The position numbers and the translations under genes are program-made. The notes beneath the pieces were generated by a model that saw nothing but the letters and a program-made list of their open reading frames with translations, made no database searches and was not told the DNA's origin. A stretch of DNA of 64,000 bases from Candidatus Tectimicrobiota bacterium. GTDB lineage: Bacteria > JACPUC01. The DNA is taken from NCBI GenBank assembly GCA_016192455.1, contig JACPUC010000001.1, positions 62,001 to 126,000 on the forward strand, in the 5' to 3' direction. Below, piece by piece: positions 9,389 to 39,705 of this stretch; positions within the stretch are counted from its first letter, which is position 1, and every line of letters begins with the position of its first letter.

Positions 9389-10362
9389 TGAAGGCGAACA
9401 GCACCCCAGACCGGCTCTCGCTGCTGCGCTTCGCGCGGCTGGGCGTGGCGATCCTGGTGGCCGTCGTCTTCTGGACCTCGGTCAGCCCGCTGGCGCGGCA
9501 CCCGGAGACCGCCGCGCCCCGGAGAGCGGACACCGGGGCGCCTTGCCGCATCGTGTCGATGGTGCTGGCGGGGGACGAGATGCTGCTCGATCTCCTTCCC
9601 CGCCGCTGCCTGCGCGCCGTGTCACCCTACGCCGCCGATCCGCTCTACTCGAACGTCGCGGAGCGCGCCAAGGGACTGACCTCTGTCACGGAGAGCGTGG
9701 AGCAGATTGTCAAATTGCAACCCGATCTGGTCGTCCTGGCTTCGTATTCCGACCCTGTCGTCCGCGAGATGCTCCGCTCGGTGGGGATGAATATCTACGA
9801 ACTTCGCTTCTTTACTTCAATTCCGCAGATTATGGTCTCCGTCCGGGAGTTGGGCCGCGCCGTCCAGATGCGCGACCGCGCCGAGGCGCTCGTGGCGTCG
9901 ATGCGATACCGGCTGAGCATGCTGCGGGAACGGGCGAAGGATTTCCCCTCCATCCGGGTGCTCTACTACGCCTTCGGGGGCTTCGTGCATGGCCGCAACA
10001 CCTCCGTCGATGCGGTCATCACCGCCAGCGGCGCCGTCAACGCCGCGGCCCTGATGGGAATCGACGACGCGCGGGAGGTGCCGGGCGAGGTGGTGTTGTC
10101 GATGAAACCCGACATCATCCTCATCGGCAGTTCGAACCCGAACGCGGCGGTGCTGGCCCAGGCGCGCTGGGCGCCAACGCTGCGCCACCTGGACGCCGTG
10201 CAACACGGCGACGTCTATGCCCTGCCCCACGGGCTGGCGGGCACGGTGTCGCACTACACCGTCGAGGCCGCCGAGGCGCTGCAGGACATCCTCATCCGCT
10301 ACCTGCAACGTCGCCACGGGGCGGCGGCGCGTCTCTCCGGCGTAGGAAGCGGTGGACCATGA
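9388..10362 (+). CDS. B12-type ABC transporter periplasmic binding protein (BtuF-like)
   Basis: This 324-residue protein has a hydrophobic N-terminal segment (residues ~15-32) but no lipobox, so it is either cleaved or membrane-tethered. The class III binding-protein fold is shown by CRIVSMVLAGDEMLLDL, VTESVEQIVKLQPDLVVL, and VLSMKPDIILIG followed by W. It would collect cobalamin in the periplasm for the permease. The start overlaps the receptor stop (TGATG) and its stop overlaps the permease start, so the operon is translationally coupled. A heme or siderophore ligand would also fit the fold, but the riboswitch favours B12. Confidence 0.88.
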   Translation: MKANSTPDRLSLLRFARLGVAILVAVVFWTSVSPLARHPETAAPRRADTGAPCRIVSMVLAGDEMLLDLLPRRCLRAVSPYAADPLYSNVAERAKGLTSVTESVEQIVKLQPDLVVLASYSDPVVREMLRSVGMNIYELRFFTSIPQIMVSVRELGRAVQMRDRAEALVASMRYRLSMLRERAKDFPSIRVLYYAFGGFVHGRNTSVDAVITASGAVNAAALMGIDDAREVPGEVVLSMKPDIILIGSSNPNAAVLAQARWAPTLRHLDAVQHGDVYALPHGLAGTVSHYTVEAAEALQDILIRYLQRRHGAAARLSGVGSGGP

Positions 10363-35135: not shown

Positions 35136-35564
35136 ATGCGGCAATTCAACCGTTTCGTGCGAGTTCCGCTCCTGGCACTGATCGCCACGTTCCTAGTGGC
35201 CTCCACGCCTGCCGCCGTCGCCGCCCAGGGCGACACCTTGCTCTACCTCGTCGAGTTCGAGGCCACCGAGGCGGGAGCTCCGACGAGCCGCGAACAAGCG
35301 ATCCACTTGCTTGAGCAACTGATCGTCCCAAGCCTCGAGCGCCTGGCGAAGGACGCCAAGGTCCGCGCCGGCGGAGTCCTTGTCGGTGCGCGAGCCGGCG
35401 TTCTCATCCTTGCAGCAAAGTCTCATGACGAAGTGACCGAGCTCGTCCGCGCCCTACCGGCCTGGGGAGTCTGGGGATGGAAGGTGAGGCCGCTCGAGGG
35501 CTTTGCTCATCGGGCTGACATCGAGAAGAAGGTGGTCCAGCAGCTCCGGGCACAGAAGCCGTGA
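35136..35564 (+). CDS. Small exported protein with muconolactone-isomerase-like fold
   Basis: This is a 142-residue protein with GGCAGGAGG before its ATG. A signal peptide (residues ~8-30, ending AAVAAQG) precedes one alpha/beta domain: TLLYLVEFEATEAGAPTSRE, VRAGGVLVGARAGVLILAAK, and SHDEVTELVRALPAWGVWGW followed by KVRPLEGF. The last part closely resembles the ELHELLSGLP...EVTPL segment of muconolactone delta-isomerase, a dimeric ferredoxin-like fold. Export of such a domain is unusual, because the isomerases are cytoplasmic. The function is unknown and the homology is inferred by eye. Confidence 0.75.
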   Translation: MRQFNRFVRVPLLALIATFLVASTPAAVAAQGDTLLYLVEFEATEAGAPTSREQAIHLLEQLIVPSLERLAKDAKVRAGGVLVGARAGVLILAAKSHDEVTELVRALPAWGVWGWKVRPLEGFAHRADIEKKVVQQLRAQKP

Positions 35565-35585: not shown

Positions 35586-35714
35586 TCAAAGGCAGGGGCC
35601 TCCCAAGCGGCTGCAGGTGCAGAAAGGAAGGATGCGGTCTTTCTTGATCATCGGATTCCATGCGGAGAGAATGTGGCGGACGATCTCTTGGACCTGAGAC
35701 TCGTCAATTTCCAT
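35586..35714 (-). CDS. Possible 42-residue protein or gene remnant
   Basis: An ATG at 35714 opens MEIDESQVQEIVRHILSAWN followed by a Cys-containing tail. The amphipathic composition looks protein-like, unlike typical GC-rich noise here, and GGAGC lies upstream. It sits beside a decayed ATPase gene on the same strand and could be a remnant of the same island rather than a working gene. Confidence 0.25.
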   Translation of the reverse strand: MEIDESQVQEIVRHILSAWNPMIKKDRILPFCTCSRLGGPCL

Positions 35715-35819
35715 GGCCGGCTCCGTGCTCCTATTGTTCGTTGCTTGTGTGCCGAAACACTCCGAACTATCACCCAAACTCCGGACAGGAGCAGCCAATT
35801 GCACACCTTCCAGGAATTC

Positions 35820-36408
35820 TCACCTCCTCGGAGGTGGCTGGACTTGCAGATTGTTCGCGGCGAGGAACGCCTCCACCGTGTTGAAGGCATTCAGGAAGAG
35901 AGGGCTTCCGGAGAAGGAGAGCGGACTCACGGGGCCGATGGTCATGAAGGAGTACTGCCGGCTCCTTGTGTCGAAGGCCGAGTGCGGATCGCGGAAGAGC
36001 TGGTAGAGGTCGAGCGCCGTACCTGACGACCCAACGAGCTGGCGCAGGGACTGAAACTCCTGTCCGAGGGCAAGTCCGAAGCCGAAGAAGAAGATCCGAA
36101 GCTGCTGCAGGATTTCGGGATGCAGGCTGGAGAGCGTCTGGCTGATGAAGAGCCAGCCGAGGCCGTACTTGCGCGTCGTGCGGGTGGCATCAATGAGCAC
36201 CGCGCGAACGCCGCGGGGTGGCAGGCCCGCGAGCTCGCAGACTTCCTTGACCTATGCCTCGGAGAGGTACACGACGAGCGTTTCAGGCGTGGCGCGATGA
36301 GCCCCCGGAGAGACGGGCCGCTATCTCTTCTGCGCTCCACCAAGCGACGCCATCCAGTCGGAGGTCGTCGATGGCGCGCTTAAGGTCGTCATGCCCCCTC
36401 GTCCACAC
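35820..36408 (-). pseudogene. Degraded HerA/FtsK-type DNA-translocase ATPase (C-terminal remnant)
   Basis: The last ~126 codons (36200 to 35820) read as the C-terminal half of a HerA/DUF87-like ATPase: RTTRKYGLGWLFISQTLSSL, EILQQLRIFFFGFGL and YSFMTIGPVSPLSFSG. In the same frame upstream the protein continues as VCELAGLPPRGVRAVLIDA, but it is broken by a TAG after VVYLSEA. Further upstream the homologous-looking frame shifts. The Walker A half is missing, because the intact helicase gene ends at 36425. This is therefore a truncated, frameshifted remnant. HerA-type ATPases pump DNA for resection or for antiphage systems. Confidence 0.6.
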
Positions 36409-36424
36409 GATCGCCTATTGACCG

Positions 36425-39214
36425 TCATGGCGCGCTCCCTCCTCTCCGTGCGACGTCGAGCTTCGCCCCCTCGCTGCACATGCGCCTGTAGTCGCAATCC
36501 CTACACTTCTTCAGGTCCGGCTTCTTAGTCATGGCCCCCTCCCGAAGCGCTTGCGCCGCAGACCGCACATTGTCCTTCACTTCATCGAGGAAGTCGTTGT
36601 CGACCGCACGTGGCTTACGCTTCCGCTCGTCGAGGTTATAGATCTCGACGAAGTCGGCGCGGCGTCCGGTGAGATCCTGGTACCCTAGCGCGTAAACATG
36701 GAGTTGCGTCTCCGTGACGTCCTCGGCCTGAGCTCGGTCGGTGGACTTCAAATCCACGATGGTCGTTTCTCCGGTGTCGATCCGGCGGACAAGATCGATC
36801 CGCCCGATGACCGAGACGCCGCCCCCGAGGTTGATCGCGACGGTCTTCTCGGAGAACTCGATCTTGTCGAAGAGGTCCCGGTTGTCGTGGAGGTAGTTGC
36901 CGAGGACCTTTTCTGCGGCCTTCTCCAGCTTCTCGCGCAGCGCGGGGTAGGCGTAGGGGGTGTGCAGGTGCGTTTCGACGAGCCGTGGCACATCCGAAGC
37001 GGACGCGACGTCGCCGCGCATTGCGCGAGCGTGGACCTCGGCGAGAGCATCGTGCAGCGACTTGCCGTAGCCGAGCGCCTCGTGGATCGGCGCGTTGAAC
37101 CCGTACAGGATGCGGAGCTTGAACTGGTACGGGCACTCGAAGAAGTACTTGAGGTCCGAGAAGGACAGGACGACGTTCGCTACGCTCGGCCGCGGCGTCG
37201 GCGAGAGGCGCTTGCGGGAGCCGTAGTCGGCGCGCCGTCGCTTGACCCACTTGGACGCAAGGATGTTTACCCAGAACTCCGAGACTTTCTGAAAGAGCTG
37301 GTTCCCGGGAACGGGACCCCACGTTAGGTGCAAGAACTTCTGGCTGCGAGTCATCGCGACGTAGAAGAGGCGCCGCTCGTCCTCGATGGTCCCCTCGTAC
37401 CGCTCCTGTCCCTCGACCGCCTCTGCGGGGAGTAAATGCCATACTGATACTGAGACAGAGCGGCCGCCCGGCTTCTTCGCAGGGAAGCGGTTTTTCAGCA
37501 GAGCCGGCACGAACACAACGGGCCACTGCATTCCCTTCGCCTGGTGGATGGTCATCACGCGCACGGCTTCTGGGTTCGCGTACTGGTTGTCCTGCCAGCC
37601 CTCTGGGTAGGCGTCCTCCGCTTTGTGCTGGAGGAAGCTCGCAAAGGCATCGTACTTCTCTATCGGCTTCGAGTGGTAGTGAATGGTCTCAAAGTCCGAG
37701 ATGAGCTGGCTGAACTTGCCGAGGTTGTAAAAGACGACCACGCCGCGATCCTCAGGGACCTTTTCCTCACGGATGGCAGCATCTTCGAGGAAGGTCAGGA
37801 ACTGGCGTTGCAAGGAGTAGAAACCCCACCGCTTCTGGTCGGGTTCGTCGAGCGCTGCCCGGTCATTCTCGACGTTCGCAATCGCATGCCTGAGGTCCGC
37901 AAGGCGCACGCCCACACGGGCGCGTACCCACGCTGCTTCCAGCGTGGTAGCGCTTACGCCCGGCCGTGCCGCCATGAAGTAGAAGACCTGGCGGGCGGCT
38001 TCAGCTTCGGGGGTCCCGAAGAGGTTGTTCATCCCGGCGACCACGTAGGGGATGCCTGCAGCCGCAAGCGCCCGCGTGATCGGCTCGCCGTTGGCTTTCA
38101 CGCTGCGGAGCAGGATGGCCATGTCCGACCACGAGATCCCCCGCTCGCCCCCGCCGTCCTTCACCGCGACACCCTGGAGAGTCAGGATGGTCTCGGCGAT
38201 GTATGCAGCCTCGGCATCGGCAGAGTCGAACCAGAGCGCGACGATGTCGCCCGTCTCGTAGACCTGAGCGTGCATCGGGATCATCGCCTTGTCGAGGCGC
38301 TCTCCGTTCTGCTTAATGAAGTCTCTCGCGGTCTCGACGACGCCCTGGCTCGACCGGAAGTTCTCCTCCAGGCGTACCTGCTTCACCTCCGGGTACCGGT
38401 CAGCGAAGGAGAGGATGTTTCCCACATCGCTGCCGCGCCACTGGTAGATGGTCTGGTCGTCGTCCCCTACGACGCAGACCTTCGCGCCGAGATCGTGCAG
38501 AATCTCGACAACGCGCTCCTGGATGGGATTCACGTCCTGGTACTCGTCGACGATGACGTGCCGAATGCGGGACCCGACACGCCTGCGTACGCCATTGTCG
38601 TCTTGGAGCGCCCTGAAGGCCTCCTCCATGATCGCGGAGTAGTCGAAGTAGCTCTTCTGGTTTAGCAGCTCCCTGTACGAGCAGAGTCCGTTAACGACAG
38701 AGCAGCCACGAAGCTTGCGATCGACAAGCCTTGACTCGCGGAGGATCCAGAGCGCAGTGAGGTAGCGACTGGTGTCTGTGTACCTCCGGAGCCTCCTGCC
38801 GTAGAGGTCCGTGGTCGCCGTGAGCCCGCTCTGCCTAGAGTGACGGTCGATGAAGAGCGCCTGCTGCACCTCGTTTAAGACTTCGTATTTCAGGAAGATC
38901 GGCACTTCTGTCTTCAAGAGATCGAGGCAGAAGGCGTGGATCGTACCGACGTACATCTCGGCCAACCCGGGGAGATCACCGATCAATTCACGGCAGCGAG
39001 TGACGATGCGTTCCTTGAGCTCCGCGGCGGCCTTCTCGGTAAACGTGAAGGCGACGATATTCGCCGGCTTGGGAGCGTCAGGGGTGCCAGGCTTAAGGAG
39101 GTTGGCTACCCGGCGCGCAATGACTTCGGTCTTACCCGAGCCCGCACAGGCGACGAGCTGGAGGTTGCCCGTCGTGTGGTTGATCGCGTCGAGCTGGGCG
39201 GGAGTGAACTTCAT
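36425..39214 (-). CDS. UvrD/Rep-family helicase fused to an AddB/Cas4-like Fe-S PD-(D/E)XK nuclease
   Basis: This is a 929-residue protein. The start at 39214 (MKFTPAQLDAI) has AAGGAG upstream. SF1A motifs: Q-motif FTPAQ, Walker A ACAGSGKT (22-29), TIHAFCLDLL (~91-100), Walker B DEYQD (223-227), motif III VVGDDDQTIYQWRG (248-261), IV LEENFRSS, V TIHQAKGM (555-562) and VI RRLFYVAMTRS (614-624). The C-terminal domain has nuclease residues GRID (Asp807), VDLK (Asp821, Lys823) and TQ..VY (Gln837). Cys694 with Cys904-X2-Cys907-X5-Cys913 frames it exactly as in AddB, implying a 4Fe-4S cluster. It probably unwinds and cuts DNA ends in repair or defence. It adjoins a decayed ATPase and tRNA-Asn. Confidence 0.93.
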   Translation of the reverse strand: MKFTPAQLDAINHTTGNLQLVACAGSGKTEVIARRVANLLKPGTPDAPKPANIVAFTFTEKAAAELKERIVTRCRELIGDLPGLAEMYVGTIHAFCLDLLKTEVPIFLKYEVLNEVQQALFIDRHSRQSGLTATTDLYGRRLRRYTDTSRYLTALWILRESRLVDRKLRGCSVVNGLCSYRELLNQKSYFDYSAIMEEAFRALQDDNGVRRRVGSRIRHVIVDEYQDVNPIQERVVEILHDLGAKVCVVGDDDQTIYQWRGSDVGNILSFADRYPEVKQVRLEENFRSSQGVVETARDFIKQNGERLDKAMIPMHAQVYETGDIVALWFDSADAEAAYIAETILTLQGVAVKDGGGERGISWSDMAILLRSVKANGEPITRALAAAGIPYVVAGMNNLFGTPEAEAARQVFYFMAARPGVSATTLEAAWVRARVGVRLADLRHAIANVENDRAALDEPDQKRWGFYSLQRQFLTFLEDAAIREEKVPEDRGVVVFYNLGKFSQLISDFETIHYHSKPIEKYDAFASFLQHKAEDAYPEGWQDNQYANPEAVRVMTIHQAKGMQWPVVFVPALLKNRFPAKKPGGRSVSVSVWHLLPAEAVEGQERYEGTIEDERRLFYVAMTRSQKFLHLTWGPVPGNQLFQKVSEFWVNILASKWVKRRRADYGSRKRLSPTPRPSVANVVLSFSDLKYFFECPYQFKLRILYGFNAPIHEALGYGKSLHDALAEVHARAMRGDVASASDVPRLVETHLHTPYAYPALREKLEKAAEKVLGNYLHDNRDLFDKIEFSEKTVAINLGGGVSVIGRIDLVRRIDTGETTIVDLKSTDRAQAEDVTETQLHVYALGYQDLTGRRADFVEIYNLDERKRKPRAVDNDFLDEVKDNVRSAAQALREGAMTKKPDLKKCRDCDYRRMCSEGAKLDVARRGGSAP

Positions 39215-39543
39215 GGGATTGAGGCTCCTTGAACTGGCAGGTAGCAGGTTCCCGCGATTCTGCCCATGACCTCCAGTCGCACAGTCCTGTACCGACGGCA
39301 CATCTCCGCCAGCCGGTTGCGATTAGTATGAAGCTCGGTCACCGCAATCGGCTCACCATTTCCTTGCCGGTTATGAAAGTTGCATGTGGATGCAGACATG
39401 CAACCAAGCGGTTAATCTACGCGACACGAGCAAGAAATTCGGAGCATCCGGCGAGGGAATCTCGGCTGAGCGCGCCCAACCCGCCGGGCACCCGACCCGG
39501 AGACCGCCTTACCACCTCCGCGGCTCCGTACCCCTCAAACAAA
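39215..39543. other. Spacer between the helicase gene and the tRNA-Asn hairpins
   Basis: This stretch is less GC-rich than most of the window. No integrase, direct repeat of the tRNA 3' end, or small gene was recognised. Confidence 0.4.
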
Positions 39544-39622
39544 TCAGGGGAAACGGCGCTTTTCAGCCTCCCGTTTCCCCTGACTTCACCGTTAACCCAC
39601 GAGCCTCGGGAGGTTCGTGGTT
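39544..39622 (-). terminator. Two hairpins downstream of tRNA-Asn
   Basis: A perfect 13-base inverted repeat (TCAGGGGAAACGG at 39544-39556 against CCGTTTCCCCTGA at 39571-39583) has a 14-base loop and on the minus strand is followed by TTTGTTTG, as an intrinsic terminator for the tRNA would be. A second imperfect hairpin (CCACGAGCCTC against GAGGTTCGTGG, 39598-39622) lies just 3' of the tRNA. Confidence 0.6.
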
Positions 39623-39629
39623 GGATGGT

Positions 39630-39705
39630 TGGCTCCCCGGGCCGGACTCGAACCAGCGACAGGGTGGTTAACAGCCACCTGCTCTACCAACTGAGCTACC
39701 GGGGA
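39630..39705 (-). tRNA. tRNA-Asn(GTT)
   Basis: A complete 76-base cloverleaf with encoded CCA. The acceptor stem is TCCCCGG/CCGGGGA with discriminator G. The D arm contains AGCTCAGTTGGTAGAGC; the anticodon arm is GGTGG-CTGTTAA-CCACC with anticodon GTT; the T arm is CTGG-TTCGAGT-CCGG. The helicase-nuclease region lies directly on its 3' side, the usual face for island integration. Confidence 0.97.

Follow-up and report, generated by a model that had tools for sequence, protein, structure and literature searches.

The window analysed here, 64,000 nucleotides on contig C23 of a draft genome resembling a metagenome-assembled genome (4.46 Mb, 31 contigs, 88% complete), contains on its minus strand a tRNA-Asn gene, a long gene for a putative helicase–nuclease (P0001) and, directly behind the latter, a short remnant in which parts of two further genes are joined (Table 1).

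Table 1. Features of the locus (window positions; all on the minus strand).
Feature	Position	Strand	Description and basis
tRNA-Asn (gtt)	39630..39705	-	upstream of helicase P0001
UvrD-Cas4-like helicase–nuclease P0001	36425..39214	-	929 aa, intact ORF, ATG start
SF1A UvrD-type helicase domains of P0001	37295..39205	-	approximately residues 4-640; Pfam UvrD-helicase 4-275, UvrD_C 483-632
PDDEXK_1/Cas4-like nuclease domain of P0001	36476..37168	-	residues 683-913; Pfam and conserved residues
Cys694 of P0001, first ligand of the predicted 4Fe-4S cluster	37133..37135	-	invariant in 25 relatives
Cys904, Cys907 and Cys913 of P0001, other predicted cluster ligands	36476..36505	-	conservation in 25 relatives
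Type III Mod methyltransferase relic (SAP-like N-terminal domain)	36217..36396	-	phmmer to Mod genes of L031, L044, L054
C-terminal HerA ATPase relic	35820..36215	-	last ~124 of 592 codons; 93% identity to L028 HerA
Putative mod/herA deletion junction	36215..36230	-	HerA DNA match starts at 36217, Mod DNA match ends at 36230

The helicase–nuclease and its surroundings

The reading frame of P0001 is free of any disruption, and an alternative GTG start at 39301 would extend the product to 958 residues. Pfam matches cover both halves of the protein (UvrD-helicase, E = 3e-53; UvrD_C, 4e-33; PDDEXK_1, PF12705, 4e-28; Cas_Cas4, 5e-9), and structure prediction with AlphaFold2 gave a confident model (mean pLDDT of 84.9, pTM of 0.85). 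The helicase part of the model resembles UvrD, PcrA and Rep best (Z 34–36), followed by AddA and AdnB (Z 26–28); most structural matches span residues 1–663, so that the evidence for the nuclease fold comes from Pfam and from conserved residues. Among 25 diverse relatives picked to span 47–75% identity, the Walker A lysine K28 is invariant, as are D807, D821, K823, Q837 and Y841 of the nuclease, whose catalytic set is D-DxK; the DEYQD motif of the helicase is likewise present. Of the four predicted cluster ligands, Cys694, Cys904 and Cys907 never vary, and the conservation of Cys913 is 90% or higher. Judged by these sequence features, P0001 unites in one chain a UvrD helicase and a Cas4/AddB-type PD-(D/E)XK nuclease with a predicted Fe-S cluster. 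The sequence-only reading had proposed both the intact fusion and the four cysteines, and these proposals are borne out, the fold prediction confirming the helicase more directly than the nuclease. Its view that a single chain of this kind is uncommon does not hold: by its sequence P0001 is a member of the widespread UvrD-Cas4-like fusion family, described in 2017.

P0001 shares with AddAB, AdnAB and RecBCD the combination of an SF1A helicase with an Fe-S (AddB-type) or RecB nuclease and, by analogy, a likely end-dependent unwinding and cutting activity. It differs from these enzymes in being a single chain with no ORF for a partner subunit beside its gene, and it falls far under the curated AddA and RecB cut-offs (149 bits against the addA profile versus a cut-off of 708). 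As in Gabija (GajAB), the UvrD-type helicase scores against GajB profiles; unlike GajB, P0001 carries its own C-terminal nuclease outside the matched part, and the locus has no ORF of the size and kind of GajA.

Does the position next to tRNA-Asn mark the insertion point of an island, as had been suggested? The 3' end of the tRNA is single-copy in the genome and no duplicate of it occurs in the window, while tyrosine integrases are encoded on other contigs only and none on that of P0001, so that integration at this tRNA is not supported. At 0.617, the GC content of the locus lies below that of its two flanks (0.69 and 0.67), which suits a foreign origin. The low-GC stretch also holds a plus-strand ORF of 142 residues (35136–35564) with a weak match to muconolactone isomerase (E = 3.5e-5, below the Pfam cut-off).

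A fused remnant of mod and herA

By itself the remnant returned nothing useful from Pfam, NCBIfam or PADLOC, and relatives were required for its identification. Its first part, some 75 codons directly 3' of P0001, matches Mod genes from three loci (L031, E = 3.2e-10; L044, 4.7e-9; L054, 1.7e-8), all of which lie directly 3' of a UvrD-Cas4 gene. The second part comes from a HerA ATPase: the codons from 36215 to 35844 specify a product 93% identical to the intact HerA of L028, a Silanimonas MAG, and 52–92% identical to the HerAs of the DruA–NurA–HerA family described below, and a search of the genome with the L028 HerA recovers the relic at E = 5.9e-72. Relative to L028, dN is 0.043 and dS 0.98 (ratio 0.044), values which indicate that purifying selection acted on the sequence during most of its past. 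The remnant is thus coding DNA, not the unrelated noncoding sequence that had been considered as a possibility. The HerA portion begins past Walker A and Walker B and, both motifs being lost, cannot act as an ATPase now; neither a second HerA like that of L028 nor an intact HerA acting in trans was found in the genome.

The presence of a Mod N-terminus and a HerA C-terminus in one remnant points to a deletion that joined mod to herA. Around the junction both parents read RGxRxxLI, and this short common sequence is consistent with a deletion at that place. Three-frame translation of 35820–36440 placed two lesions, a TAG stop at 36252–36254 and a frameshift near 36287, within the Mod part. The earlier description of a frameshifted HerA remnant therefore stands for the HerA C-terminus, but the remnant is not purely ATPase and its lesions lie in mod. 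At least most of mod and most of herA has been lost from the locus, and res, druA and nurA have probably been lost as well. The proposal of a defence module that has lost a partner and survives as a relic is accordingly retained in a modified form, the lost set comprising mod and herA at the least and not a single ATPase.

As in many of its relatives, then, P0001 is followed directly by the N-terminal end of a type III Mod gene, but unlike a working type III restriction–modification (R-M) system the locus has no functional Mod (~75 codons interrupted by frameshift and stop) and no res. A separate type III Mod–Res pair resides on contig C8 (L197, 5102–7852 and 8422–11257; G000:C8:46000–58000); its Mod is intact, and its Res is broken into two reading frames at about locus position 9560–9640.

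Genomic partners of the UvrD-Cas4 family and of HerA

A scan of the genome collection yielded 80 UvrD-Cas4 loci; one archaeon is represented, and the other loci are spread over many bacterial phyla. Neighbours were counted in the 54 loci whose flanks extend 3 kb or more on each side, R-M genes being scored within 6 kb with our own profiles and Pfam checks. R-M genes, mostly of type III and in a few cases fragments, accompany the helicase in 45 of these 54; one locus has DruA–NurA–HerA only, and eight have neither, a point that tells against an R-M role. The same profiles, run as a control over 467 kb surrounding 30 HerA loci, detected no Mod, Res or UvrD-Cas4. Type III Mod/Res is the most common partner, and the remainder are diverse, including HsdM or HsdR (L037, L042, L058 and L090), a single-chain type ISP enzyme (L036) and Eco57I or type IIG-like methylases (L056, L071 and L085), while distant plasmid relatives (31–37% identity) adjoin type II systems of the MspI and MvaI/BcnI types. 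Phyla and partner types are mixed in the helicase tree, with several changes of partner, in agreement with horizontal spread and partner exchange; the helicase of the window groups with those of L024 (Mod/Res) and L036.

The linkage of UvrD-Cas4-like (pfam12705) fusions to type III R-M and to Dcm/Vsr was described by Hudaiberdiev et al. (PMC5704561), and P0001 conforms to that description in domain architecture, Cas4-like nuclease and linkage to Mod/Res and Dcm-type systems. It departs from it in that the mod of the window is reduced to 75 codons and joined to what is left of herA; the HerA, DruA and NurA context goes unmentioned in that paper (HerA does not occur in it) and is what the present analysis adds.

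Several neighbours fall outside these categories. In two alphaproteobacterial loci (L057, 10757–13900, and L058, 10757–13945) a sacsin/NOV-type ATPase directly follows UvrD-Cas4, checked against Pfam in L057 and recognised in L058 by its identical N-terminal sequence. A RadC-like gene, named from its N-terminal sequence only, lies directly upstream in L031, L065, L067 and L084. The UvrD-Cas4 gene of L069 (5546–8299) adjoins a DNA methylase and apparent phage tail and lysis genes, and is possibly prophage-borne.

The constant partners of the HerA family to which the relic belongs are NurA and DruA, not the helicase. The three genes occur together, in the order DruA, NurA, HerA, in 21 fetched loci, often as an operon of their own with ordinary genes around it (L169, L170, L172, L180, L185 and L195), which makes them a candidate defence or repair operon; in L131 and L133 they stand beside Mod/Res. 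The relic thus derives from a NurA-linked HerA family comparable to known HerA–NurA pairs (PF01935 and PF09376), distinguished by the accompanying DruA (PF14236) and, in the window, by the survival of a non-functional C-terminus only. Among 369 genomes from the class that includes L028's genome, whole-genome search found HerA of the L028 type in 6; with a broader profile, which also picks up a more distant HerA branch, hits came from 35 of 400 genomes in the phylum to which L071's genome belongs and from 3 of 398 in that of L028's. No HerA was found on viral contigs. In type I Druantia, DruA goes with the helicase DruE and with DruB–D; in the present loci, part of whose neighbours were scanned for DUF1998, its companions are NurA and HerA. 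DUF4338 has been read as a GNAT-like domain (PMC10853773); our own structure model of DruA (pLDDT 39.6) is too poor to judge the fold. The PADLOC profiles cover DruA and include none for the NurA of this operon, and the literature searched, mostly papers available without subscription, contained no description of it.

In L028 and L034, UvrD-Cas4 is the first gene of a single operon that continues with DruA, NurA and HerA, and in L028 the gene starts (PF14236, PF09376 and PF01935 for the last three) overlap or nearly abut; L071 holds the same set convergent with UvrD-Cas4. These arrangements, together with similar dS values to L028 for HerA (0.98) and the helicase (1.11; helicase dN/dS was computed against distant relatives only), might suggest that HerA–NurA, UvrD-Cas4 and DruA form one dedicated end-processing machine to which mod was incidental. 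We consider this unlikely. Intact ATPase–helicase pairs of the kind sought by the sequence-only reading do exist, but L028, L034 and L071 are the only 3 of the 80 UvrD-Cas4 loci with a HerA of the relic's family nearby, most relatives having R-M genes nearby, and a helicase–HerA pair is therefore not a general ancestral unit. Most DruA–NurA–HerA operons, moreover, have no UvrD-Cas4 in their vicinity, and the relic directly behind the helicase of the window is mod, not druA. One further locus, L099, was evaluated as an intact UvrD-Cas4/Mod/Res/HerA arrangement and rejected, as its ATPase scores far below the HerA family.

Probable decay of the locus and a proposed role for the helicase–nuclease

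Taken together, these data make it probable that the locus is a decayed, horizontally acquired defence locus of the R-M type, of which an orphaned, apparently intact helicase–nuclease remains. We propose that in the ancestral locus UvrD-Cas4 was followed by mod and herA at the least, and probably by res, druA and nurA too; none of the 80 relatives has an intact mod and a herA of the relic's family on one strand behind UvrD-Cas4, and the gene order is accordingly a reconstruction. A deletion at the short shared sequence would have fused mod at about codon 75 to herA at about codon 468, the frameshift and stop accumulating in the fusion afterwards. More tentatively, we entertain as a real possibility that DruA–NurA–HerA is an undescribed three-gene defence operon able to recruit UvrD-Cas4 as a fourth component, as in L028 and L034, and that the window preserves the scar of a locus that once carried both this operon and type III R-M.

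Could P0001 instead be an orphan repair enzyme for chromosome maintenance, with unrelated debris behind it? Some relatives do stand alone, such as that of L055 beside ispG-like housekeeping genes. The genome, however, encodes its own AddA/AddB operon (L196, 3296–10944; G000:C31), the host's end-processing enzyme, so that P0001 is not the housekeeping enzyme of end resection and represents an addition to it; the patchy distribution across phyla, the incongruent tree, the strong R-M linkage and the recognisable identity of the relics as mod and herA also speak against a housekeeping gene, and we regard this explanation as very improbable. That metagenome assembly created the mod–herA fusion together with its frameshift and stop is likewise very improbable, even for an incomplete draft in 31 contigs, since the join is in-frame at a short shared sequence, there are two more independent lesions, the minus-strand order is continuous, and a comparable deletion has removed most of the middle of mod next to an intact UvrD-Cas4 in L050.

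For the decayed R-M-type locus that we favour, the following mechanism may be envisaged. The R-M nuclease would cut unmethylated invader DNA first; the UvrD-Cas4 protein would then load on the new ends and unwind them in the 3'–5' direction, and its PD-(D/E)XK nuclease with the predicted Fe-S cluster would degrade the unwound strands, rendering the cut irreparable. The orphan helicase–nuclease may still be expressed. The activities of AddAB and AdnAB are well established, and the proposed role in end processing would fit both the resemblance of P0001 to these enzymes and the indifference of the family to the type of restriction enzyme beside it.

What do these findings imply? They assign a function class to an orphan helicase–nuclease that survives after the deletion of its R-M partners, and the DruA–NurA–HerA operon suggests a possible co-worker for DruA, namely the HerA–NurA end-resection pair. 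A nuclease acting after restriction enzymes as different as types I, II, III, ISP and IIG would constitute a general second step of restriction. The greater interest lies in the relatives and less in the decayed copy of the window.
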